Origin: Acidobacteriota bacterium
GTDB taxonomy: Bacteria; Acidobacteriota; UBA890; WLXD01
Assembly (NCBI GenBank): GCA_012103255.1
Contig: WLXD01000002.1
Span: forward strand, 868,001-932,000
Direction: 5' to 3'
Length of the DNA: 64,000 nt
The stretch's first letter is position 1. Each line of letters starts with the position of its first letter. Under the pieces are notes generated by a model. It searched no databases and was not told where the DNA came from. It saw nothing but the letters and a program-made list of their open reading frames with translations. Shown here one piece after another: positions 4,906 to 35,357 of this stretch. A program made the translations under genes and the position numbers.

Positions 4906-7533
4906 CTATGCGGAATTGATCGCTCGCACGGGATCGGTGCGGGAAGCACGGCGCGCCGGTAGATATGCCGCGGCGACGGCCACGGCCAACAAGCCGGCGC
5001 AAGCCACCACCAGCGCGGTTGGATCGTTGCGCCCCACACCAAAGAGAAGACTCTCCAGGGTTCGGCTTGCGGCAAAGGAGAGCCCTAGCCCCACGGCCAT
5101 GCCGCCCGCCGCGATCAAGAGCCCGCGGCTGAGAACCATTCGCACGATGGCAAGCCGGTCCGCCCCCAGAGCCATGCGGACACCGATTTCCTGGGTCTGC
5201 TGCCGAACGAGATGCGCCAATACGCCGAAAAGGCCCACCGCGGTAAGGAGCAACGCGCTGGCCGCGAAGAAGACCAGCATCCGAGTCCACAATCGTTGAC
5301 CGCTGATCGACGCACCGAGGCGCGAGTCCATGGTCTCGATGTCAGCGGGCGGAAGGTTCGCGTCGAGACTGGCCACGATCGAATCGAGCGAGTCAGCGAG
5401 CCCCACCGGCGCACCGTTGGTACGCACCACGAGACTCATCGACCGCTGCCAGAAGCGATACACCGGGAAGTAGAGTGTCTGGCCATCCCCTGCGAGGCCG
5501 TCGTACTTCACGTCGCCGATGACGCCGACGATATTGTGCTCCACCGATCGATCTCCACCCGAATAGATCTGCTTGCCGATAGCACTTTCATCCGGGTAGA
5601 ACCTGCGTGCCCAGCTCTCTGTGACCACAAGATTCCATGGGGTGTTCTCGTCGCCTGCGCCGTCGAGCGCTTCGTCGAACCATCGTCCGTCGACCAGCCG
5701 CAACTCGAGGACATCCAGAAAGTTGTCGCCTGCTCCCACCCACGGTGTAACGGGCTGCGATGTGCCGGCGACGACGGGACGGTCCACGAGATCGAAGTTG
5801 TTATGCGTGGCCGGCGAGTCGGGAGGCAGGCCCTGGCTGATACCCACCGACACCACTCCGGGCAGTTCCGCCATCTCGGTTGCTGCCGCACGCCAGAAGA
5901 TCTCGGATAAGGCCGGGTCTGCGTATGCAGCGGCGGGCAGGCTCACCGACACCGCGACGACGTCACGCGGTTCGAAACCGGGATCCACCTGGCTGAGCTT
6001 GAGCAGGCTAAGAGTGAGCAGGCTGCCGCCCACAACCAGTGGCAGGACCAGGGCAAACTCGATCGCAACTAACGCTGTGCGCAGGCGGCGTGTGGCGCGC
6101 GAACTCACAGAACCTCGACCACCTGCTCGGAGGCCACGTAGAAGTGCTGTTCCCGATGTCAGCGCCAGGGGGGCCACCGCGAAAATCAGTGCGGCGAACG
6201 CCGACAAGCCTGCCACGAAGGCCCCAGTCTCAAAACCGATCGTGGCGTCGGTGAGGCGAGGCAAGCCAGGTTCCGCCGCCTGGAATGCTTTCAGAGCAAT
6301 CCAAGCGAGCACCAGACCGCCAGCCCCGCCAACAGACGCGAGCACCAGGCCATCGGCGAGCAGGAGTCGCGCAAGTCGCCAGCGGGAAGCGCCGACGGCA
6401 GCGCGCACGGCGAATTCTCCCGAACGCGCCACGGAGCGCGCGAGAACCAGGTTCACCACATTCGCGATCGCCACGATCAGAACGAGCAAGACCGCAGCAA
6501 ACACCAGGCCCAAGCGGCCGCCCGCGGAACCAACCACGATCTCGTGCAACGAGTACGGAGTCAGCATCGCGTTCTCATCGAAACCGGGCCAACGCTGATA
6601 CAGCCGCCTGCTCACATCTGCTAGGTCTGTCCTGGCCTTCTCGATATCGGAGCCGCCCTTGAGCCGACCAAGACCACGCATGAAGAACGGTCCTCGGCGC
6701 CCAGGCTCGACGAGCTGCAAGGCAACCCACAGATCGACAGCTGGCTCGATCGGGCCGCGGTGCGCGGCATCCATCACGCCTACGACGGTGTGGAGCGTTC
6801 CATCGAGGTCGATCGTTTGGCCCACCGCTTCCCCACCCACGCCGAAGTGCGTGTCGCGCAGCGCCGCGCTGAGCACTGCAACTTCGGACGCTCCCTCTCG
6901 ATCCTCGCCCGGAGCGAACCCCCTACCTTGAGCGGGCTGCGTTTGCAGGACGTCGAAGAAGTCCGCCGTGACGACCGCGGCTCGCACGCGCTGCGGCTGA
7001 TCGGGCGCGGCGAGAACAGGGCTACGGACAGTGAAGGCCGCGACAGCCTCAAGGGATCGCTGCATCTCTTCCATGCCCAGAAAGTCAGCCGTGGAAATAT
7101 TGAATCGGTTCGTTGGTGAGTTCTGCTCGAAAATCACCACTAACGAGTCAGAGTCCGGATAGGGCAACGGCGCCAGCACGATGGCGTTGAGCAACGCGAA
7201 GACTGCGGCGGTGGTGCCTATCCCGATCACGAGCGTGACCGCGGCAGGAAGTGCGAATCCGGGCTGACGCAGAAAATCGCGTCCGGCACGGACAAGGTCG
7301 CGGAAGAAGCTCATCATCGGTAAGTCCACGGTGCGGGGATCGCGGTCGGCCCAGGTCGCCAGGAGCGCCCGGACGAGGTCGGCGGCGAAAGCACGCCAGT
7401 AGGCAACGCGATCTCGCCAGGTTCTCCGGCGTTCGTAGTTCGCGCGCATGTAGTCGAGCATCTCGGCGCCGAACCGTGCCCTGATGCGATGCGGGTACAG
7501 ACCCAGCGCCAGCCGGAAGACAACCTCACTCAC
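4906..7533 (-). CDS. ADOP-type ABC transporter permease (MacB/FtsX duplicated)
   Basis: An 875-aa protein with the ADOP layout: a soluble prefix domain (residues 1-60, FRLALGLYPHRIRARFGAEM), a first transmembrane helix near 100, a MacB-like periplasmic domain, three FtsX helices (about 335-460), and then a complete second copy of this module (about 480-875). Both halves carry the FtsX signature, seen as GEFAVRAAVGASRWRLARLL in the first and EIGVRMALGADRLAIVRMVL in the second. ADOPs are common in Acidobacteriota and lack a fused ATPase; an ATPase would have to be encoded elsewhere. The substrate is unknown, with efflux or envelope-lipid roles possible by homology. The start overlaps the stop of the PadR gene by four bases. 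Confidence 0.92.
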   Translation of the reverse strand: MSEVVFRLALGLYPHRIRARFGAEMLDYMRANYERRRTWRDRVAYWRAFAADLVRALLATWADRDPRTVDLPMMSFFRDLVRAGRDFLRQPGFALPAAVTLVIGIGTTAAVFALLNAIVLAPLPYPDSDSLVVIFEQNSPTNRFNISTADFLGMEEMQRSLEAVAAFTVRSPVLAAPDQPQRVRAAVVTADFFDVLQTQPAQGRGFAPGEDREGASEVAVLSAALRDTHFGVGGEAVGQTIDLDGTLHTVVGVMDAAHRGPIEPAVDLWVALQLVEPGRRGPFFMRGLGRLKGGSDIEKARTDLADVSRRLYQRWPGFDENAMLTPYSLHEIVVGSAGGRLGLVFAAVLLVLIVAIANVVNLVLARSVARSGEFAVRAAVGASRWRLARLLLADGLVLASVGGAGGLVLAWIALKAFQAAEPGLPRLTDATIGFETGAFVAGLSAFAALIFAVAPLALTSGTALLRGLRAGGRGSVSSRATRRLRTALVAIEFALVLPLVVGGSLLTLSLLKLSQVDPGFEPRDVVAVSVSLPAAAYADPALSEIFWRAAATEMAELPGVVSVGISQGLPPDSPATHNNFDLVDRPVVAGTSQPVTPWVGAGDNFLDVLELRLVDGRWFDEALDGAGDENTPWNLVVTESWARRFYPDESAIGKQIYSGGDRSVEHNIVGVIGDVKYDGLAGDGQTLYFPVYRFWQRSMSLVVRTNGAPVGLADSLDSIVASLDANLPPADIETMDSRLGASISGQRLWTRMLVFFAASALLLTAVGLFGVLAHLVRQQTQEIGVRMALGADRLAIVRMVLSRGLLIAAGGMAVGLGLSFAASRTLESLLFGVGRNDPTALVVACAGLLAVAVAAAYLPARRASRTDPVRAINSA

Positions 7534-10333: not shown

Positions 10334-10663
10334 TTGAGCAAGCGCAACCAACTCGGCGAACTTGAGCACATCGTGCTTTCGACGATCATGCGCCTCGGTG
10401 ACGAGGCCTACGCACTGCCAATCCGCGCCCAGCTGGCGGAAGTGGGGCGCTCGGTGTCTCGCGGGGCCCTCTATACGACTCTGATGCGCCTGGAGAAGAA
10501 GGGGTTTGTGGAGTCGCGGATTGGCGACCCTCTCCCGCAGCGCAGCGGCCGTGCTCGACGGTACTTCCGGGTTTCGGCCGCGGGCATCGCAGCCGTCCGC
10601 TCCTCTCGAGAAGTACTCCTGCGCGTTTGGGGTGGCCTCGAGGACAAGCTGGAGAATCCATGA
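10334..10663 (+). CDS. PadR family transcriptional regulator
   Basis: A 109-aa PadR protein starting at TTG: LGELEHIVLSTIMRLGDEAYALPIRAQLAE, then SRGALYTTLMRLEKKGFVESRI as recognition helix, and the wing SGRARRYFRVSAAGIAAV. Reading from the GTG at 10277 adds 19 residues with no family match and would cover the palindrome, so it is rejected. The PadR at 32368 aligns with this one residue by residue from this start. The stop overlaps the ATG of the next ADOP gene (ATGA). Confidence 0.87.
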   Translation: MSKRNQLGELEHIVLSTIMRLGDEAYALPIRAQLAEVGRSVSRGALYTTLMRLEKKGFVESRIGDPLPQRSGRARRYFRVSAAGIAAVRSSREVLLRVWGGLEDKLENP

Positions 10664-13284
10664 CACCCCCGCGACGGTGGGAACGCCTACTGGCGTGGAC
10701 TCTGCGAGACTCGCCGCATCGCGATGCAATCCTCGGTGACCTGGAAGAGGAGTTCCGCGTATGGCGCTCCGCTGGCCGGCCCAAGGCCCTGATCGCAGGC
10801 ATTCGATATCGCGTCCATGCGCTCGGACTCGCCGCGCAACTCCACAACGACTCATCTCACCGCTTCGATATCCCCGGCACGGAACGACTCATGCACCGTT
10901 GGCTCCGCGACACGCGCTACGCGTTCGGATCGCTCAACAGATCGCCGGGCCTCGTGGCCATGGTGGTTCTGACCCTCGGACTTGGCATCGGCGCCAACGT
11001 CGCCATCTTCAGCGTCGTGAACGGCGTGCTGCTCACGCCGCTGGGGTTCGATGAGCCGGACCGCGTCGTAGCGGTCTGGGCCACCTCGAACGAGGCGACC
11101 CGACGCCCACTTCCCGCTGCCGACTTCGACGACCTGCGCATGCAAGCGGATCTTCTCGAAGTGGCCGGGCGCTGGAGCAACACCGGCAGTCTGACTGGCG
11201 ACCATGACCCGCGCGAGGTGGGGGTTGGATGGGTGGATATCGAGTACTTCCCGATGCTGCGCATCGCGCCGCTGCATGGGCGGTTGATGAATCCCGACGA
11301 GTTGCGGGCGATCGTTCTCGGGCATGCCATCTGGCGTCAACTCTATGGTGCCGATCCCGCCATCGTCGGGAGCACCATCGACCTGGACGGAGATGCCTTC
11401 ACCGTCGTCGGAGTACTGCCTCCGTCGCCCGACCCGAACCTGCCGAGCACCAACGGACGCATCGAGACGTCAGAGATCTGGCGCCTGATGCCGCTCGATT
11501 GGTACCAGGGTAGCGACGACCGGACTCTGGGATGGCTCAGAGCAACGGCTCGCCTCCGCGAGGGTGTGACGCTGGAGCAAGCTCAGCAACAGTTCGATCG
11601 TATCGCCGGCGAAGCGCGTCCGCCCGTGGCAGACACCGGACGGCCCGAGTATTGGTTCAACGCAGAACCTGTTCTGGACAACCTGGTTGGCGACGTGGCG
11701 CCCACTCTCACCGCGCTGGCCGGGGCCGTCGGATTCGTGCTGCTGATCGCTGCCCTGAATGTGGCCCAGCTGCTCCTGACCCGTGGACGCGCTCGGGCCG
11801 CGGAGCTAGCAGTTCGTTCCGCACTGGGCGCCGGTCGACGGGACCTCCTGCGTCAACTCGTGATGGAGTCTGTCTTACTCGCCACGGCGGGCGGCATTGC
11901 TGGTGCGCTCATCGGCGCAGCGAGCGTGCGCGCGTTGCTGAATCGAGCACCGGCGAACCTACCGCGCCTCGACGAGATCGCCATCAGCAACGAGGTCTTG
12001 ATCTTCGCCGCGTGCATCACCGGGCTGGTCGCCCTCGTCTCGGGCGTAATCCCGGCGCTCTCCTCGACTAGGAATCCGGGATCCGTGCTCCGCGCTCAGA
12101 GCGGGACGCCAGGGCGGCGGTTTCGCCGCTTGAGCTCGATGCTCGTGATCGGCGAGGTCGCGCTCTCACTGGTGCTGTTGACTGGCGCCGGTCTACTGGG
12201 CCGCAGCTTCCTGGGCCTAGCGGCTGAAGCGCCCGGCTTCCAACCTCAGAGCCTGCTCACCCTGTCCGTGACCGCGAGTGGCGGAACGGGGGGAGATCAG
12301 CCCAACCCCTTCACTCCCATTCTCCGACACCTGTCGGAAGCGCCGGGCGTTCTGGCCGTTGGTGGAACCAACCGGTTGCCATTGGGCGGCGGTCTCTTCA
12401 CCGGCAACTACGCCACCGAGTCAATGGGCGCTGAGTCGGAAGACAAACCGTGGGTGGACTTCCGCTGGATCACGCCCGGGTATCTGGAAGCAATGGGAAC
12501 GAGCGTGATCGAGGGGCGAGCGCTGACCGACGACGACGGGGAGGACAAGATCCTCGTCGATGCCCAGATCGCCGAAGCAGCATGGCCGGGCGAGACGGCG
12601 ATCGGCAAGCTTCTGTGGACCGGAAACCTCGGACGCAATGGCGAGTGGTCGGAGGTCGTCGGAGTCGTTGATTCGATGAAGCACACGAGCGTCGCCGCTC
12701 CGGCCGAGCCGACGGTGTTCTTCCATGCCGTCAACGCGCCGGCCAACCGTCTCTACTTCGCCATCCGGACCATCGGCGACCCCGCCACGATGACCTCGTC
12801 GATTCTCGCGGAGCTCGAACGCGCCGATCCCGGTGCGACGATCTCGAGGGTTCGGACGATGGACTCGCTGGTGAGCGACGCCAACGCTCCGTGGCGATTC
12901 GCGCTCAGTTTGATGGCTGCTTTCGCCAGCGTCGCGGTAACCATCACCGTGGTGGGTCTGTACGGCGTGGTGGCGTATGGCGTGACCCAGCGCACGAGGG
13001 AGTTCGGGATCCGCATCGCACTCGGTGCCTCCGGCCAGAACGTCGCGCGGCTCGTACTCAGCCAGACGATGGGGCTGGTAACCGTGGGAACGATCGTGGG
13101 CGTGATGGGAGCGGCCGCCCTATCGGGGCTGCTCGGAAGCCTTCTCTTCAACGTGGCCCCAACCGACCCGATGACCTACGCGGGCGTGGCCGCGTTCATG
13201 CTGATCGCCGCGCTGATCGGCGCCTGGCGGCCAACCCGCCGGGCGGTGAGGGTGGATCCGCGAGTCACGATGACTGGGCCGTAG
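10660..13284 (+). CDS. ADOP-type ABC transporter permease
   Basis: An 874-aa duplicated MacB/FtsX permease. The N-terminal prefix domain (DSPHRDAILGDLEEEFRVW) is of the 'GDLEEEF' type shared with the ADOPs at 14061 and 32697, unlike the prefix of the one at 4906. A transmembrane helix near 105-125 (GLVAMVVLTLGLGIGANVAI) opens the first MacB module; the second opens near residue 490 (LVIGEVALSLVLLTGAGLLG). FtsX signatures are AAELAVRSALGAGRRDLLRQ and EFGIRIALGASGQNVARLVL. It is translationally coupled to PadR. An ATPase is not encoded nearby and the substrate is unknown. Confidence 0.92.
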   Translation: MTPPRRWERLLAWTLRDSPHRDAILGDLEEEFRVWRSAGRPKALIAGIRYRVHALGLAAQLHNDSSHRFDIPGTERLMHRWLRDTRYAFGSLNRSPGLVAMVVLTLGLGIGANVAIFSVVNGVLLTPLGFDEPDRVVAVWATSNEATRRPLPAADFDDLRMQADLLEVAGRWSNTGSLTGDHDPREVGVGWVDIEYFPMLRIAPLHGRLMNPDELRAIVLGHAIWRQLYGADPAIVGSTIDLDGDAFTVVGVLPPSPDPNLPSTNGRIETSEIWRLMPLDWYQGSDDRTLGWLRATARLREGVTLEQAQQQFDRIAGEARPPVADTGRPEYWFNAEPVLDNLVGDVAPTLTALAGAVGFVLLIAALNVAQLLLTRGRARAAELAVRSALGAGRRDLLRQLVMESVLLATAGGIAGALIGAASVRALLNRAPANLPRLDEIAISNEVLIFAACITGLVALVSGVIPALSSTRNPGSVLRAQSGTPGRRFRRLSSMLVIGEVALSLVLLTGAGLLGRSFLGLAAEAPGFQPQSLLTLSVTASGGTGGDQPNPFTPILRHLSEAPGVLAVGGTNRLPLGGGLFTGNYATESMGAESEDKPWVDFRWITPGYLEAMGTSVIEGRALTDDDGEDKILVDAQIAEAAWPGETAIGKLLWTGNLGRNGEWSEVVGVVDSMKHTSVAAPAEPTVFFHAVNAPANRLYFAIRTIGDPATMTSSILAELERADPGATISRVRTMDSLVSDANAPWRFALSLMAAFASVAVTITVVGLYGVVAYGVTQRTREFGIRIALGASGQNVARLVLSQTMGLVTVGTIVGVMGAAALSGLLGSLLFNVAPTDPMTYAGVAAFMLIAALIGAWRPTRRAVRVDPRVTMTGP

Positions 13285-13642
13285 TCCCCTCGGTAGTACG
13301 GATCTCTTCGAGCATCGACTCGCCTTCGCTCTCGTCACCGCTGGTCCACTGCCACTTCTCATGCAACCGAACGCGACCGTCCGCTAGAACCTCGGGCGTG
13401 GACCGGCAGCGCCCCGTCATCAGGTCGCCCCCAGCGTTGACGTGCGCGTACCGCATGTCGAGACGATCTTCGGAGTCGACCTTCGCGACAAGCGTTCCGA
13501 AGCGGGCGTGGCCGCCCTCATAGGTCGCCCATACGACGTCGTCACGTTGCCGATAGTGAAACACCGTGTCGAGGGTCACCTCGCCGTTGTCAGAGTTGAC
13601 CACCGGAACGAACCGTCGACCGTCATAGTTGATGCGTGCCAT
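13265..13642 (-). CDS. Small conserved protein often labelled 'N-acetylglutamate synthase'
   Basis: A 125-aa protein with a strongly patterned sequence: INYDGRRFVPVVNSDNGEVT, FHYRQRDDVVWATYEGG, RLDMRYAHVN and VRLHEKWQWTSGDESEGES. Many short proteins with this pattern are deposited as 'n-acetylglutamate synthase', but it has no GNAT or kinase-like motif and that label is doubtful. A beta-rich fold is likely. Its 3' end overlaps the convergent ADOP by 20 bases. It is divergent from the next PadR gene with the large palindrome between them, so it may share that control. Confidence 0.7.
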   Translation of the reverse strand: MARINYDGRRFVPVVNSDNGEVTLDTVFHYRQRDDVVWATYEGGHARFGTLVAKVDSEDRLDMRYAHVNAGGDLMTGRCRSTPEVLADGRVRLHEKWQWTSGDESEGESMLEEIRTTEGTTAQSS

Positions 13643-13682
13643 GCCGGTAGGAAAGCACATGGTGCGGCTTGCGACGATCGAT

Positions 13683-13721
13683 GAATACTCTGTATACTTC
13701 GTCGAGTTATACAAAGTATTC
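13683..13721. promoter_or_regulatory. 14-bp inverted repeat between divergent genes, PadR operator candidate
   Basis: GAATACTCTGTATA at 13683 and TATACAAAGTATTC at 13708 match as inverted repeats at 13 of 14 positions, with an 11-base spacer. The site is between the start of the 125-aa protein (13642, minus) and the PadR start (13738, plus). It could control both promoters. Confidence 0.7.
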
Positions 13722-13737
13722 CTCGATGGAGGCCGCG

Positions 13738-14064
13738 ATGGCCCGAGTGGGCGAGTTCGAGTTGCTGGTCATTCTGGCGATCCTGCGAAGCGGCGAAGCG
13801 CCGTACGCCAATCGGATTCGCGAGGATCTGGAGGCGAACGCGAACCGCGCCGTCACGCGTGGCGCGCTGTACCGCACGCTGGATCGGCTCAAGAACAAGG
13901 GACTCCTTGTCTGGGAAGATGCGCCGAGTGCCGCGCCGGAGCGCGGCGGTCACCCGATGCGTCGGCTGGTAGTGACGGCGCTCGGCCGCGAGGCCGCACG
14001 CGACTCCCGCGACGTGTTGCTGGGTTACTTCGAAGGCGTCGGCGCCGCGCTGGACGGCAAGTGA
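13738..14064 (+). CDS. PadR family transcriptional regulator
   Basis: A 108-aa PadR protein: ARVGEFELLVILAILRSGEAPY for the first helices, VTRGALYRTLDRLKNKGLLVWE for the recognition helix, and HPMRRLVVTALGREAARDSR for the wing and dimer helix. ATG 13738 has GGAGG five bases upstream; ATG 13726 and an earlier start at 13669 are less likely, and the latter would run through the palindrome. Its stop overlaps the GTG of the downstream ADOP (GTGA), so they form an operon. Confidence 0.88.
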   Translation: MARVGEFELLVILAILRSGEAPYANRIREDLEANANRAVTRGALYRTLDRLKNKGLLVWEDAPSAAPERGGHPMRRLVVTALGREAARDSRDVLLGYFEGVGAALDGK

Positions 14065-16781
14065 TTCTGCGCCCCCCTCCCCTGCCTCTATGGCTCCTTC
14101 GCCGCTGCCTGACAGGTGATGCCCAGGCCGGGCCTCTCCTGGGTGATCTGCACGAGGAGTTTCATTACCGCGCGCGCCGTGACGGCGGCAGCGCCGCTCG
14201 AGTGTGGTTCTGGCGCGCCGCGCTGAGCCTCACGCTCTCGATTTCCGCCTATCGCGCGGCAGGGGCAGTGATCCCCGGCCACCGAGGAATCCCCGGAGAA
14301 TCTGCAATGTCCAACTGGCTCGGCCTCGAGGCCGTCGTTCACGACACTCGCTACGCCACGCGGGCGGTTCGCAAAGATTGGCGCTACTTCGCGTTCGCCG
14401 TGGCGATTGTGGCCATCGGTGTCGCCGCCAGCGCGACGGTCTTCAGCCTGGCGCAACCACTGATGCTGCGGCCGCTGCCCTTCATGGAGCCGGGGCAGCT
14501 GATCTGGATCGCGAACGACGGCGAAGGCGACGGCATGTCCGCGGTCACTTCGCGGACGAGCAACCTGACGGACTTCCGCAGCATGGCGTCCAGCTTCGAC
14601 GGCATCACCGGCTACAACGCCTTCTTTCAGGCGGATGTCTACAACTACATCGGGTCGTCGGGTCCCCGGCGTCTTACGGGCGCCGGCGTGGCGCACGACT
14701 TTCTCGACGTGCTCGGAGTTCAGCCTCAGCTCGGCCGCAACTTCACCGCGGAGGAAGGCACGAGCGACGGTCCACTCGCGATCATCCTGTCCCACGCGTT
14801 CTGGGTCGCGCAGTTCAACTCCGATCCAGCGATCGTTGGCACGGACATCATCATCAACGAGATGCCCCGACTGGTAGTCGGCGTACTGCCGTCGTCGTTC
14901 GACTTCGCGTCGCTGTTCACACCGACCGCGCGCGTCGACTTCCTCAGGACCTTCCCGATCGACGAACGCACCGACCGTTGGGGCAACACACTCGCCATGA
15001 TCGGTCGCCTCGACCGGCAGGCCAGCGTCGAGGCCGTCCAGGCGGAGTTAGACGCGATCGTCGTTGGACTGCAGGAAGCCGAGCCCGATCGCTGGGGGCT
15101 GGGTGCACGAGTTTCCACCCTGCGCCATCACCTGGCCGGGCCGCACACGCGCGCCATGCTGCTCCTCGCCGGAGCAGCCGCGATCGTGATGTTGATCGTC
15201 TGCGTAAACCTGTCGAACCTGCTGCTCGCGCGCGCACCACGACGGACGCGCGAGATGGCCATCCGGGCCGCACTCGGAGCGAGCAGGCGGCGGCTCATTC
15301 GCCAGATGGTGCTCGAGAGCCTGATCGCGTCGGCAAGCGGCGCGGCCGCTGGCATCCTGATTGCCCACCAGCTCACGGAGTCGGTGGTCCGCCGGGCGAG
15401 TGTGAGCATCCCGTTGCTCGACACCGTGACAGTCGATGGCGTGGCGATCCTGTTCGCGGCCGGCCTCGCGATCGCAGTCGGCGTCGTGGTCGGCGTGTTC
15501 CCTGCACTCCAAGTATCCGACGGAGGGAGCCAACAAGGCCTGACCGGTTCGCGCAGCGCTACGGTAGGTCGCCGCGCCCGCAGTCTTCGCGAGGGCCTGG
15601 TTGTCGCCGAGATCGCGATGGCCTGCGTGCTCCTCGTAGTGGGAGGGTTGCTCCTGCGCAGCCTGCAGGAAGTTCTCACCGCGGAGCGCGGGTTCGAGTC
15701 ATCGGGACTCGTTGCGTGGGATGTGGGGCCGGCCCGCGACTTCGGCACATACGGAGACGAAGCCGCCTTCTTCGAGCAGCTCGTGGAAGCGGTATCTGCG
15801 TTCCCGGGTGTCGAAGCGGTTGGACTGGTGGACTCGGCTCCTCTTGGCAGGAATCGGTCCTGGTCAATCAACATTCCCGGAGGGCTGCCCGAGGAGGACC
15901 CCGAGGTTCATCCGCACCTCGTGAACGATACCTACCTGCAGACACTCGGGATCGAGTTGAAGGCCGGTAGGTTCTTCAACTCGGACGACATGACGATTGG
16001 GCTGTCCGCACGCGCGGACCGCTTCATGACCGAGGAAGAGCGACCGGAATCGGGTCTGGTAGCGATCATCAACGAGACGGCAGCGCAGGCGCTGTTTCCG
16101 GGGCAAGACCCGATCGGGCAGTACGTAAACACGGGTCCAGATTGGGAAATCGTTGGAGTGGTCGCCGATATGCGCCACCGCACACTGGAAGACGCCGCCG
16201 GACTGCAGCTGTACATGCCATTCGCCCAGAACCCCGACCACGATGGGCTCTCCATGCTGGTGCGTTCGGATCTTCCCGTGGCAACGCTCCGCGTCCAGGT
16301 GGAGGCCGCGATGCAAGCCGCTGATCCAGGAATGCCCACAGGCGACTTCGAGACGCTCGACGACGTGATCTCCCGAACCACCTCGCCCCGACGATTCACC
16401 CTGGCCCTGCTGGGCGGATTCGCAGTGGCAGCGCTGCTCCTCGCGATTGTCGGGATCTACGCTGTCTTGTCGTACGGCGTCGCCGAGCAGACACGCGAGA
16501 TTGGTATCCGGATGGCGCTCGGTGAAACGGCTCAGCAGGTGCGACTGCGTATCGTCAAGCGCACACTCCTGCTCGCCTCGATCGGAGTCGGCGTCGGCTG
16601 CCTGGTGGCTCTTGCCGCCTCCACAGCGGCTCAGTCGCAGCTGTACGAGGTAGGCGCGGGAGATCCGCTCACGCTGGGCGCTGTTGCGACGATGCTCGTA
16701 CTCGCGGCACTCGCAGCCGGACTCGGACCCGCCATTCGAGCGTCCCGCACGAGTTCGATCCGCGCCCTGGAGACTCCCTAG
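14061..16781 (+). CDS. ADOP-type ABC transporter permease
   Basis: A 906-aa duplicated MacB/FtsX permease that begins with GTG overlapping the PadR stop; the frame is open far upstream, but that part is not this protein. The prefix domain includes AGPLLGDLHEEFHYRARRDG. The first module opens with a helix near residues 110-130 (YFAFAVAIVAIGVAASATVF), and FtsX signatures are REMAIRAALGASRRRLIRQM and EIGIRMALGETAQQVRLRIV. The second half has its own large periplasmic domain. It resembles the other ADOPs here but is the longest. The function is inferred only at the level of ABC permease. Confidence 0.92.
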   Translation: MILRPPPLPLWLLRRCLTGDAQAGPLLGDLHEEFHYRARRDGGSAARVWFWRAALSLTLSISAYRAAGAVIPGHRGIPGESAMSNWLGLEAVVHDTRYATRAVRKDWRYFAFAVAIVAIGVAASATVFSLAQPLMLRPLPFMEPGQLIWIANDGEGDGMSAVTSRTSNLTDFRSMASSFDGITGYNAFFQADVYNYIGSSGPRRLTGAGVAHDFLDVLGVQPQLGRNFTAEEGTSDGPLAIILSHAFWVAQFNSDPAIVGTDIIINEMPRLVVGVLPSSFDFASLFTPTARVDFLRTFPIDERTDRWGNTLAMIGRLDRQASVEAVQAELDAIVVGLQEAEPDRWGLGARVSTLRHHLAGPHTRAMLLLAGAAAIVMLIVCVNLSNLLLARAPRRTREMAIRAALGASRRRLIRQMVLESLIASASGAAAGILIAHQLTESVVRRASVSIPLLDTVTVDGVAILFAAGLAIAVGVVVGVFPALQVSDGGSQQGLTGSRSATVGRRARSLREGLVVAEIAMACVLLVVGGLLLRSLQEVLTAERGFESSGLVAWDVGPARDFGTYGDEAAFFEQLVEAVSAFPGVEAVGLVDSAPLGRNRSWSINIPGGLPEEDPEVHPHLVNDTYLQTLGIELKAGRFFNSDDMTIGLSARADRFMTEEERPESGLVAIINETAAQALFPGQDPIGQYVNTGPDWEIVGVVADMRHRTLEDAAGLQLYMPFAQNPDHDGLSMLVRSDLPVATLRVQVEAAMQAADPGMPTGDFETLDDVISRTTSPRRFTLALLGGFAVAALLLAIVGIYAVLSYGVAEQTREIGIRMALGETAQQVRLRIVKRTLLLASIGVGVGCLVALAASTAAQSQLYEVGAGDPLTLGAVATMLVLAALAAGLGPAIRASRTSSIRALETP

Positions 16782-24613: not shown

Positions 24614-25660
24614 ATGGACCCGAGAGAGAAATTCAGGCTCACGAGCCTGGCCACATCCGGCGGCTGAGCAGCGAAAGTAGGTCCGGGTGACCTATCCGAG
24701 CTTCTCGCCCCGCTCATGGGCGGAATAGCGTCTGACGCCGCGGTCCTGGTAGGCCCCGGCACGGCGGACGACGCCGGTGTGTACCGACTCGGCGACGAGG
24801 CGATCGTCGCCACAGCCGACTTCATCACGCCCATGTGCGACGACCCGCACCGCTTCGGGCGCGTCGCCGCTGCCAACGCGCTCTCGGATGTGTACGCGAT
24901 GGGCGGCAGCGCTCTGTTCGCGCTCAACCTCTGCTGCTTTCCCGAAGACGCGGCGCCGGCCGGAACGATGGAGGCCATCCTCGCGGGCGGCATGGAAAAG
25001 CTCCGCGAGGCGGGCGCCGCACTACTCGGCGGCCACTCTGTTCGTGACGCCGAGCTCAAGTACGGACTCGCGGTGGTCGGCCGGGCGGCACCGGACCGGC
25101 TGCTGACGAACGCCGGCGCGCGAGCGGGCGAGGATCTCGTGCTCACGAAGCCATTGGGCACCGGTGCGCTCATCAACGGGTTCCGCGGCGGCGAGGTTGA
25201 CGAGATCGGCCTCGAGCCTGCGCTGGCCGGAATGGAACGACTGAACGATGCCGCCGGCCGGCTGGCGCTGGAGCACGGCGCGAATGGCGCCACCGATGTC
25301 ACCGGCTACGGCCTGGCGGGACACGGTCTCGAGATCGCACGCGCCTCGGAGGTGTCGCTGCACATCCACGTCGATACCCTGCCGGTATATCCCGGCTTCG
25401 ACGACGTACACGCTGCCGGCGTGGCGACGCGCGGAGAACGCGAGAACGCGGCCGCAGCCGGCGGAGCGGTGGAGTTTGGCGACGCTGTCAGCGACCGAGG
25501 CCGCCAGCTTCTCTTCGACCCACAGACCTCGGGCGGCCTCCTCATCGCGGTCGCAGCCAACCGGTCAGAGGCGCTGCTCTCAGCGCTCCGACACGAGGAC
25601 TACGTCGCAGCGCGCATCGGCACCGTGGAGACGGGCGAACCGGCGATTGTCGTCGACTAG
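24614..25660 (+). CDS. selD: Selenide, water dikinase (SelD), selenocysteine-containing
   Basis: SelD makes selenophosphate from selenide and ATP, the selenium donor for selenocysteine. Reading from ATG 24614 through an in-frame TGA at 24665-24667 gives 348 aa, with FRLTSLATSGGUAAKVGPGD at the N-terminus. That aligns with the E. coli HGAGC17GCKISP active-site loop: Sec18 replaces Cys17 and Lys21 is the catalytic lysine. Downstream, DDAGVYRLGDEAIVATADF, RVAAANALSDVYAMGG, TDVTGYGLAGHGLE and FDPQTSGGLL are typical SelD motifs. A start at ATG 24716 would lose the catalytic loop. A hairpin just after the TGA fits a bacterial SECIS. No selA, selB or selC occurs in this window. Confidence 0.93.
24665..24694 (+). 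promoter_or_regulatory. Sec codon UGA and bSECIS-like hairpin in selD
   Basis: The UGA at 24665-24667 is followed after ten bases by TAGGTC (24678-24683), a CGGGT loop (24684-24688) and GACCTA (24689-24694), a perfect 6-bp stem. The loop begins 17 bases after the UGA. Bacterial SECIS elements have an apical loop with exposed G residues about 16-37 bases after the Sec codon, and this fits. Binding of SelB is inferred. Confidence 0.75.
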
Positions 25661-26704: not shown

Positions 26705-26724
26705 GAGCCCTCCGGATTGGGCTC
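26705..26724. terminator. Stem-loop between convergent genes
   Basis: GAGCCC-N8-GGGCTC forms a 6-bp stem between the pseudopilin and the beta-lactamase-family gene and touches the latter's stop codon. There is no U-tract, so its role in termination is tentative. Confidence 0.35.
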
Positions 26725-28192
26725 AGCCGATCCTCTCGAACCAGAGATTGGTTACTCGACCAGCTTCAACGTCAAAGCCATCCACGCGGCCGGCGCGATC
26801 ACGCGCAAACCGTAGCCGTACACCGTTGGTCGTATCGACAAAGGTCTCTCCGTCGACCGCCTGCAGAAGGAGGGCATCGCGCCCTTCCGGCTGCACCACG
26901 AGCTGTCCGTCGCGGATCTCGATGGTGTACGTCGTCCCGAGTTCGCGACTCACATAGCGCCCCTGGTATTGGCGCAGCTGCGACATCGACACGCTGAACT
27001 CGTCCGGCACGCCTTCCTCGCTGGCCTCGGTAGTCGGCGCGGGAGCTAAGCCCAATGTGTCCGCAAGCAGCGCATCGGCTACACGCTCGCCCAGCCCAGT
27101 CGGATTCGACTGCGCAACGTTGCAGAGAGTAATGATCGTTGTGCGGACGTCCGGGTAGCGCGCCATCTGGGCGCGGAAGCCGACGAACCCGCCGCCGTGC
27201 GAGACCCTGCGCAGCCCGCGGTATTCATCGAGCCCGATGCCGGCCGCGTAGAGCCAACCGCCGTTCCCCGCGGCCGGCTCACCATCGTTCAAGCGGCCAG
27301 GTGTAATCCAGCGCCGAATCAGTTCAGGGTCGCCCTGCCCTAGCGTGTTGTCGTAGAAGTTCCGATCCCACGCGAGCAAGTCGTTCACCGAGGTAAAAAC
27401 CCCGCCATCACCCACAATCGGTAGCGGGGTCATCGAGATCGCGAACCCGTCATCCGCGCCGGAGTATCCATACGCCCGTTGACGTACGACTTCGGTGGTA
27501 TCGGAATAGAACCTCGTGTCCCGCATACCAAGCGGCGCGAAGATCAGTTCCTCCGCCAGCGACTCGAACGACTCGCCGCCGGCCCTGGCGGCGATCACGC
27601 CGAGCAGGAAGTAGCCCGTGTTGCTGTAGAGGAACTCCTCACCGGGGGCGAAGTTGAGCGCTTGCTGGCGACTCAACAGACCCATCAACTGGTCCGCGTC
27701 GTAATAGTCAGTCTCGCGGTACCCGGCTAGCCAGGTAAGCACCAGATAGTCGCGCAGCCCGCTGGTGTGGTGCACCAAGTGGCGAACCGTGATCGAGCCG
27801 AGGTGTTCAAGTTCGGGCAACCATCGCCCCAGACGGTCGTCCAGACTCAGGTCGCCGCGCTCCTCGAGCAGTAGCACCACCATCGCGGTGAACTGTTTGG
27901 AGACGGATGCGATGCGGAAGACGGTCGCGGGCGTGATCGGTACCGCGTGTTCGAGGTTTGCCTCACCATAGCCACGCGCGTAGAGAAACTCGCCGTTCTG
28001 AATGACCCCGAGTGCACACCCGGGAGATCCCGGCCTGTCGTATTCGGCGAAGACGCGATCGAATTCCGCGCGGCCGGTCAGCGGGCGGACGACCTCCGCT
28101 GCGCCCCCGCACCCGACGACAGTCGCGACCAGGGTCGCCAGGGATGCCCCACGCACGAACACGCACAGAAAAGCATTCCTGGGAGTCATCAT
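26723..28192 (-). CDS. Beta-lactamase-family serine hydrolase (class C-like), lipoprotein
   Basis: A 489-aa protein with a lipoprotein signal (ATLVATVVGC, lipobox Cys28). The class C beta-lactamase/DD-peptidase motifs are present: SxxK at Ser96-Lys99 (ASVSKQF), YxN at Tyr189-Asn191 (YSNTGY) and HGG at about 332-334 (SHGGGFVGF). About 100 residues after the fold (RQYQGRYVSRELGTTYTIEI) form a lipocalin-like C-terminal domain common in this family (DUF3471-like). The natural substrate is unknown; beta-lactam resistance should not be assumed. It is divergent from the TetR gene, with the 10-bp palindrome 108 bases upstream of its start. Confidence 0.85.
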   Translation of the reverse strand: MMTPRNAFLCVFVRGASLATLVATVVGCGGAAEVVRPLTGRAEFDRVFAEYDRPGSPGCALGVIQNGEFLYARGYGEANLEHAVPITPATVFRIASVSKQFTAMVVLLLEERGDLSLDDRLGRWLPELEHLGSITVRHLVHHTSGLRDYLVLTWLAGYRETDYYDADQLMGLLSRQQALNFAPGEEFLYSNTGYFLLGVIAARAGGESFESLAEELIFAPLGMRDTRFYSDTTEVVRQRAYGYSGADDGFAISMTPLPIVGDGGVFTSVNDLLAWDRNFYDNTLGQGDPELIRRWITPGRLNDGEPAAGNGGWLYAAGIGLDEYRGLRRVSHGGGFVGFRAQMARYPDVRTTIITLCNVAQSNPTGLGERVADALLADTLGLAPAPTTEASEEGVPDEFSVSMSQLRQYQGRYVSRELGTTYTIEIRDGQLVVQPEGRDALLLQAVDGETFVDTTNGVRLRFARDRAGRVDGFDVEAGRVTNLWFERIG

Positions 28193-32367: not shown

Positions 32368-32700
32368 ATCAGCACGCGGGATCATCTCGGTGAATTCGAA
32401 CAGACCGTGCTCTTCACCCTCGCGCGTCTGGATCGGGCTGCGACCGGACGCGACGTGTACCTCGAACTGGTCGAAGTCACTGGCCGGGATGCGTCGGTAG
32501 CCGCGGTGCACGTGACACTTGGGCGCCTGGAAGACAAGGGCCTGGTGGCGATCCGGATGGGCGATGGCGCCGAGGGGCTGGGCAGACAGGTTCGGCACTT
32601 CGCGCTGCGAGAGCCGGGAATGCAGGCGCTGCGCGACAGTCGGACGCACTGGGAGCGCCTCTGGAACGGCATAGCCCTCGAACCCGGTGATGGCGCGTGA
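32368..32700 (+). CDS. PadR family transcriptional regulator, apparent ATC start
   Basis: A 110-aa PadR protein: STRDHLGEFEQTVLFTLARL, AAVHVTLGRLEDKGLVAIRM and the wing GLGRQVRHFALREPGMQALR. The reading frame is open upstream to an ATG at 32266, but that start would put the AT-rich promoter repeats inside the gene and add about 34 residues of non-family sequence. Instead, GGAGGT sits five bases before an ATC at 32368. From that codon the protein aligns residue for residue with the PadR beginning at 10334 (S-K-R-N-Q-LGE and S-T-R-D-H-LGE). A rare non-AUG start or a sequence error from ATG are both possible. The stop overlaps the GTG of the ADOP gene. Confidence 0.8.
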   Translation: MSTRDHLGEFEQTVLFTLARLDRAATGRDVYLELVEVTGRDASVAAVHVTLGRLEDKGLVAIRMGDGAEGLGRQVRHFALREPGMQALRDSRTHWERLWNGIALEPGDGA

Positions 32701-35357
32701 GTCTCGCCCCGCGCGCAGCAACATTGCTGCTGAAGTTGATCCTTCGCGGCTCGGTCGGCGCCGCGGTCTTGAGCGATCTCGGCGAGGAGTTCACCGCCAG
32801 GGCTGAACGGGACGGGCTACGTCAGGCAAAGAGATGGTACTGGCGCCAAGCGCGGTGGAGCCTCGGCCCTGCGCTCCGGCTAGGCAGATCAGGCCGCGAG
32901 GGAACGCACTCGACCGGGGGCACGCTCAGGCCCGGCGGACGCGGCCCGGGCGCACGGCACGCCATTGGCTTGGGCGCGGCGATTGGGAGCCTCCGCGGAC
33001 ATCGTGCCGCGGCGTTGACAGTAGTCGTGACGCTTGGTCTCGGGATCGCCGCCGGCACCGCCGTCTTCAGCATCCTCTCGCGAGTCATCATGGAACCACT
33101 CCCCTACGCCCAGCCCGATCGGCTGGCGTTGGTTCGCGTCGACCGCCCGACCACACCGAACCACCCGCTCATGACCGGCGCGGAGTATGTGGCCGTCACC
33201 GGAATACCCGCGATCGAGCTGGCGTCCTCGGTGGCCGCAGACATGAACCTGAGTTGGGAGGCACCGGACGGGCCGAAGTCGATTGAGGCGGCCGGCATCG
33301 GAGTCGACATGCTTCGACTCCTGGGCGTGCAACCCGCGCTAGGGCGCGACTTCCGTGAAGAGGATCGCGACGGGGGCCCGAGCGCGGTGATCGCCACGTG
33401 GCGGTTCTGGCGCGACGAGCTGGCTGGCAACGCTGAGGCCATCGGGCAAAGCCTCACACTCGCGGGCCGCGCGTACACGTTGGTAGGAGTTCTCCCCGAG
33501 CACTTCGAGCTTTTTGTCGGACGCGATGCCCGGGGCGCCGAGGATGCGGCAGTCTTTTTCCCCTCACGCGTCGCGGTAGAGAACACGCGGTTCGCGACGT
33601 TCCGGGCGCTGGTTCGACTCGCCCCCGAGACGAGCCATCTCGAGGCCGAACAACAACTCGCGTTACTTCCGGCGCGACTCGCCGAACTCGACCCCGAGAT
33701 GCTGGGCGGCGAGGTGACCTACCGCTTGGTGCCGCTGCATCAAGACGAGATTGCGGACGCACGATCCGCGATCGTCGGGCTGCTTGCCGCAGGCGCGCTC
33801 GTAGTGCTGCTTACGTGTCTCAATTCCGCCGGCCTCCTGTTGGCACAGGGAGCGCGACGTGCCCCCGAATACGCCGTGCGCGCCGCCCTCGGAGCAAGTC
33901 GCGCTCGGCTTCTATCACAGTCATTGATCGAGACGGCGATCCTCACTGCCGGCGCCACGGCGGTTGGGATCACCCTCGGAGTCGTCTTCCTTCACCAGCT
34001 CCTGGCGAGAGTGCCTATTCAGATTCCCCGGATGGATGCGGTGTCCCTCGACCCGAGAGCAATCTGGCTCGCCACCGCGCTCGCGGCTCTCGTCGCAGGT
34101 GCCGCCGGCCTGCTCCCCGCCCTGCAGGCTGGAGGAGCCGACCCTCAAGCCGCATTGCGCGCCGCCGGTAGTCGCGTCGTCTCGTCCTCCAGATCCCGAT
34201 ACGGCCTGGTGATCGCACAGATCGCGGTGTCGGTTGTTCTGCTCCTGGGTTCCGGACTCATGGTCAGGACACTCCACAACCTCAGATCGGTGCCACTCGG
34301 CTACGCAACCGAGAACCTCTATACCGCGAAGGTGATCGCGCCTCGACCCGCCGAGGGCGACACGTACTGGCAGTTCTTCCAGCGCGCCCTGGAGAGTCTC
34401 GAGGAGACGCCGGGCGTCGCCGGTGCGACTGCAGTCAGCAGGACTCCCCTACTCGAGCAGAGCGATGTCGAGATCGTGAACTTCGGGCTGCGACCCGACG
34501 ATCTGGCCGCGGAACGCGCCGACCTCCGCTGGATCCTGCCGAACACTTTCGACGTACTCGGCACACCGATTCTGGAGGGTCGGAGCTTCACCTGGCAGGA
34601 AGTGCGTGATCAGAGTCCCGTGGTCGTCGTCGGCCACCAGATGGCAACCCGTTTGTGGCCCGATCGATCACCGATCGGTCAGGAGGTCTGGATCCCGCGG
34701 CGATGGGGCGGAGAGCCCGAGGCTGCGCGCGTAGTGGGCGTCGTGGCTCATGCGCGGATCGCCTCGCCGCGCGAGATCGGACGCTCACAGGCATTCAGAC
34801 CGGCAAGTCACATGAACTGGGGCGTCATGACGCTGGCCGCCCGCTCTCAGCTCCCGCCCAGTGAGGTCTTCGGCCGGATCCGCGAGGTGGCAGCGCGGAG
34901 CAACGCCCGCAACGTGTACTCACTGGCCCCGATGGCGACCATCGTGGCGGAGACCATGGCCGCGACCACCGTGGCCGCGGTGACAGTGGCCGGCCTGGGG
35001 CTCACAGCTGGGCTCGCCACGTTGATAGGGCTCTACGGCCTGCTCTCCTTCCTCATCACCAGCGAGCGCCGAGAGATCGGTCTGCGCCTCGCGCTCGGAG
35101 CACGTCCTGCAGAGATGGCCTGGCGCTATGTTGGCCGCGGGCTCATGCTCGCCGCAGTCGGGCTGGGTTTCGGCGCGATCGTCGGGACATTCCTGGGCGG
35201 ACTCGTTGAAGCGAGCTTGTTCGGGATCACGGCGCACGACCCGCTGACCTGGTTGGTGGTGTGCACGGGGTTGCTCGGAGTCGCCGCGCTGGCGGTCCTG
35301 AAACCCGCCCTCACCGCCTCCAGCATCGAACCGGTCGACGCACTTCGGTCAGAATGA
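32697..35357 (+). CDS. ADOP-type ABC transporter permease
   Basis: An 886-aa duplicated MacB/FtsX permease starting at GTG, which overlaps the PadR stop (GTGA). The prefix domain includes GAAVLSDLGEEFTARAERDG. Helices near residues 100-120 (AAALTVVVTLGLGIAAGTAV) open the first module; FtsX signatures are APEYAVRAALGASRARLLSQ and EIGLRLALGARPAEMAWRYV. It shares prefix type and plan with the ADOPs at 10660 and 14061 but is clearly diverged. No ATPase gene is nearby. The substrate is unknown. Confidence 0.92.
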   Translation: MSLAPRAATLLLKLILRGSVGAAVLSDLGEEFTARAERDGLRQAKRWYWRQARWSLGPALRLGRSGREGTHSTGGTLRPGGRGPGARHAIGLGAAIGSLRGHRAAALTVVVTLGLGIAAGTAVFSILSRVIMEPLPYAQPDRLALVRVDRPTTPNHPLMTGAEYVAVTGIPAIELASSVAADMNLSWEAPDGPKSIEAAGIGVDMLRLLGVQPALGRDFREEDRDGGPSAVIATWRFWRDELAGNAEAIGQSLTLAGRAYTLVGVLPEHFELFVGRDARGAEDAAVFFPSRVAVENTRFATFRALVRLAPETSHLEAEQQLALLPARLAELDPEMLGGEVTYRLVPLHQDEIADARSAIVGLLAAGALVVLLTCLNSAGLLLAQGARRAPEYAVRAALGASRARLLSQSLIETAILTAGATAVGITLGVVFLHQLLARVPIQIPRMDAVSLDPRAIWLATALAALVAGAAGLLPALQAGGADPQAALRAAGSRVVSSSRSRYGLVIAQIAVSVVLLLGSGLMVRTLHNLRSVPLGYATENLYTAKVIAPRPAEGDTYWQFFQRALESLEETPGVAGATAVSRTPLLEQSDVEIVNFGLRPDDLAAERADLRWILPNTFDVLGTPILEGRSFTWQEVRDQSPVVVVGHQMATRLWPDRSPIGQEVWIPRRWGGEPEAARVVGVVAHARIASPREIGRSQAFRPASHMNWGVMTLAARSQLPPSEVFGRIREVAARSNARNVYSLAPMATIVAETMAATTVAAVTVAGLGLTAGLATLIGLYGLLSFLITSERREIGLRLALGARPAEMAWRYVGRGLMLAAVGLGFGAIVGTFLGGLVEASLFGITAHDPLTWLVVCTGLLGVAALAVLKPALTASSIEPVDALRSE

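Follow-up and report, generated by a model that had tools for sequence, protein, structure and literature searches.

The selD reading frame and its in-frame TGA

The window, the whole stretch of 64,000 nucleotides of acidobacterial DNA that was analysed, contains a gene for selenide, water dikinase (SelD) with a TGA codon inside its reading frame. This raises the question of whether the TGA is a stop, an error or a codon for selenocysteine (Sec). The first-pass annotation had proposed the last of these, and the positions on which it relied were read as claimed in the DNA: the start codon is ATG 24614, the TGA occupies 24665..24667 and the AAA codon of Lys21 occupies 24674..24676, all on the plus strand. 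With the TGA translated, the selD coding sequence covers 24614..25660 (plus strand), ends at TAG 25658-25660 and encodes 348 amino acids with Sec as residue 18. The N-terminus then reads MDPREKFRLTSLATSGGUAAKVGPGDLSELL...; the peptide quoted earlier had omitted residues 2-6 (DPREK), but the remainder was exact. No clear Shine-Dalgarno sequence was seen upstream of ATG 24614 when the window sequence was inspected.

Residue 18 is the counterpart of Cys17 in Escherichia coli SelD, and Lys21, three residues downstream, is the counterpart of Lys20. Comparison with Sec- and Cys-type SelD placed the UGA on the catalytic residue and the Lys at +3, as proposed earlier; every Sec- or Cys-type SelD sequence that was read has this Lys. 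The window protein scored 336.2 bits against the TIGR00476 selD equivalog model (cut-off, 125), with the match covering model positions 1-309 of 311. It retains the catalytic U and K as well as the motifs DDAGVY, NALSDVYAMGG, TDVTGYGLAGHG and DPQTSGGLL. The best match among solved structures was the SelD of Aquifex aeolicus (PDB 2yye, E 6.7e-62; also 2zod). In this closest solved relative, the loop SSGCAAKVGPGDL is nearly equal to SGGUAAKVGPGDL of the window protein, but a Cys stands in the solved chain where the latter has U.

When the TGA is taken as a stop (translation table 11), the open reading frame shrinks to 24716..25660 (plus strand), encoding 314 amino acids without the catalytic loop. 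This is the loss of the active site, with a start at ATG 24716, that had been predicted for a gene caller.

Elsewhere in the window, tRNA and Rfam scans gave nothing. A codon-usage scan for further TGA read-through returned weak, scattered candidates without a known selenoprotein motif, and these were rejected. The window also encodes four large MacB/FtsX-type ABC permeases (4909-7533, 10627-13281, 13629-16778 and 32697-35354).

Conservation of the TGA and the predicted downstream hairpin

A SelD with 70% protein identity, encoded in a genome of the same genus (G003), has the identical TGA, which supports the earlier view that the codon is genuine and not a misread TGC or TGT. Of the codons that precede the TGA, 12 of 17 are identical or synonymous in the two genes. 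Residues 2-5 differ; among the codon changes between Lys6 and Gly17, only a single one is not synonymous. The shared TGA and the mostly synonymous changes near it exclude an error of a single assembly or a one-off sequencing error. On the basis of sequence, the comparison indicates that the stretch upstream of the TGA undergoes translation.

The same codon recurs more widely. In a survey of 396 Acidobacteriota genomes, SelD exceeded the cut-off in 261, and a count by eye of the SelD matches listed (roughly 150) put the share with exactly one TGA at about two thirds. Seventeen Sec-type SelD genes, 16 of them from other genomes and most of these from Acidobacteriota, were read as DNA, and all 17 had TGA at the catalytic position and Lys at +3, in line with the statement of the first-pass annotation that some SelD proteins carry Sec here. 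The Cys-type genes had TGC or TGT at this position. SelB exceeded its cut-off in all of the tested genomes with a TGA-containing SelD (18 of 18).

These observations bear on whether the TGA might be a true stop in a decayed selD, or a sequencing error for TGC or TGT. The table 11 frame, which begins only at ATG 24716, would be expected in that case, but the separately assembled genome of the same genus has the same TGA amid mostly synonymous changes, the body of SelD is intact as judged by TIGR00476, the UGA stands at one position across the phylum and the Sec machinery of the genome is complete. Decay or error is therefore very improbable.

A bacterial SECIS-like hairpin is predicted at 24677..24695 (plus strand), with a 7-bp stem (GTAGGTC/GACCTAT) and the loop CGGGT at 24684-24688. 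The loop begins 16 nt downstream of the UGA and has G in its second position. Rules described for bacterial SECIS elements call for a loop of 3-9 nt, a stem of 4-16 bp, G within the first two loop positions, a distance of 16-37 nt from the UGA and a minimum free energy at or below -7.5 (PMC13188914), and the predicted selD hairpin agrees with them. The predicted fold of the 37 nt downstream of the UGA has -11.4 kcal/mol, and that of the 49 nt around the TGA has -20.7 kcal/mol (z = -2.3 against dinucleotide shuffles). Because the hairpin sits in coding sequence, synonymous-codon shuffles were used as a control. Against these, the 17 Sec-type SelD genes had a mean z score of -2.32, compared with +0.19 in 16 Cys-type genes. 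The selD gene of the window was not significant by itself (z = -1.0, P = 0.18), and the claim of structure beyond coding thus rests on the gene set.

Selenocysteine machinery and other selenoprotein candidates

The genome to which the window belongs (4.81 Mb, 95% complete) encodes SelA (534 bits), SelB (319.6 bits; cut-off, 242) and one tRNA above the tRNA-Sec cut-off (65.9 bits), which ARAGORN also calls tRNA-Sec with the anticodon tca. The working Sec system that had been expected elsewhere in the genome is thus represented by SelA, SelB and tRNA-Sec(UCA), and selD has, together with them, an in-frame UGA at a redox position that is kept in relatives. The selenouridine synthase gene ybbB (TIGR03167) was not found in the genome, and selenouridine use was dropped as a second reason for the presence of SelD.

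At least six further selenoprotein candidates were found beyond selD in a few family searches, which makes the list incomplete. The alpha subunit of a formate dehydrogenase, a molybdopterin enzyme, is encoded at G000:C2:686848-688116 (minus strand) with a TGA at the active site (HQCAATUHAPTVAGL) and a strong predicted hairpin downstream of it. Three AhpC/TSA-family candidates resembling Prx/TlpA lie on G000:C4 near 221.6, 261.2 and 325.7 kb and have UxxC motifs (WUPWC within RGTWUPWC, TULAC within SPTULAC and WUPYC within RGGWUPYC); in each of the three genes a hairpin is predicted shortly after the motif. Two AhpD-like candidates, on G000:C1 near 1453.4 kb and on G000:C4 near 482.1 kb, have the CxxU motifs CDPU and CHYU. 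The TGA sites in these candidates correspond to positions of redox Cys in relatives, and the selenoprotein list of PMC1794560 includes such families. No TGA-containing member of the thioredoxin family was found in the family search of the genome. With at least six additional candidates having UGA at known redox sites, UGA recoding looks general in this organism.

In-frame TGA codons in several genes could also arise from a change of code by which TGA stood for a standard amino acid in the whole genome. This is extremely improbable and is excluded by where the in-frame TGAs are placed, namely at redox-active sites of families already known to contain selenoproteins. In addition, the genome encodes SelA and SelB, its tRNA with the anticodon UCA is tRNA-Sec, and ordinary long reading frames of the window stop at TGA (for example, 26723-28192).

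The window gene is almost certainly a functional selD with Sec as catalytic residue 18, a reading in which Sec insertion and enzyme activity are predicted. SelB, together with Sec-tRNA-Sec (UCA), would bind the predicted hairpin that closely follows UGA 24665, and Sec would thereby be inserted. The resulting SelD would convert selenide and ATP to selenophosphate for SelA, and this selenophosphate would serve the synthesis of SelD itself as well as that of the other selenoproteins.

Sec- and Cys-type relatives and implications

SelD proteins that contain Sec are a long-described, textbook family of selenoproteins. They are very common in Acidobacteriota (PMC4561486, PMC13188914), with which the phylum survey agrees, and known selenoprotein genes have been reported in an Acidobacteriota genome (PMC12013277). 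Since this family is long described and common in the phylum, the window SelD is a new but ordinary member of it. It resembles prokaryotic Sec-SelD and SPS2 in the single site of the UGA and the Lys at +3, in a predicted SECIS-like hairpin within the gene downstream of the UGA, and in co-occurring with selA, selB and selC. It differs in being rather divergent, on a long branch, and in having SGGUAAK in place of the usual AGUAxK; nothing essential differs.

Other genomes of the same family and genus encode a fusion of an NADH dehydrogenase-like protein to SelD, a type of oxidoreductase fusion known from PMC4561486; the N-terminal oxidoreductase domain was seen in G002 and G003. The fusion shares the SelD domain, but it has Cys (CAGCGSKV or similar) and is about 37-39% identical to the window SelD. 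Cys-type SelD loci (L015-L017) occur in these same-family and same-genus genomes, and G003 has both a Sec-SelD and a Cys-type SelD. When the window's genome was queried with SelD protein, neither a Cys-type SelD nor the fusion was found, leaving the Sec-SelD as the only SelD found in this 95% complete genome.

A phylogeny that included Sec-type, Cys-type and fused SelD proteins implied at least two Sec/Cys changes among its sequences; it had many unresolved forks, and therefore no direction of change is claimed. The SelD proteins of the window and of G003 grouped on one long branch (2.29 changes per column). Such a branch might be expected if UGA were decoded as Sec in a protein that is SelD-like but not a working selenophosphate synthetase. 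This is very improbable: the search of the 95% complete genome, which encodes SelA and SelB, revealed no other SelD, and the protein scores above the cut-off of the selD equivalog model and has the catalytic U and K and the SelD motifs.

The main consequence is for annotation: a standard gene caller would lose the active site of selD and would also truncate a minimum of six further genes of the genome. The window also adds a case in which a Sec-SelD is the sole selenophosphate synthetase found, beside relatives with the Cys-type form. Because it is the only SelD found, a self-requiring loop, in which the synthesis of SelD requires SelD and which might serve as a selenium switch, can be suggested tentatively, although we consider it rather unlikely. 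If such a loop exists, the Cys-type SelD in genomes of the same genus and family would break it, and the genus would permit cells with a Cys-type back-up to be compared with cells without one.
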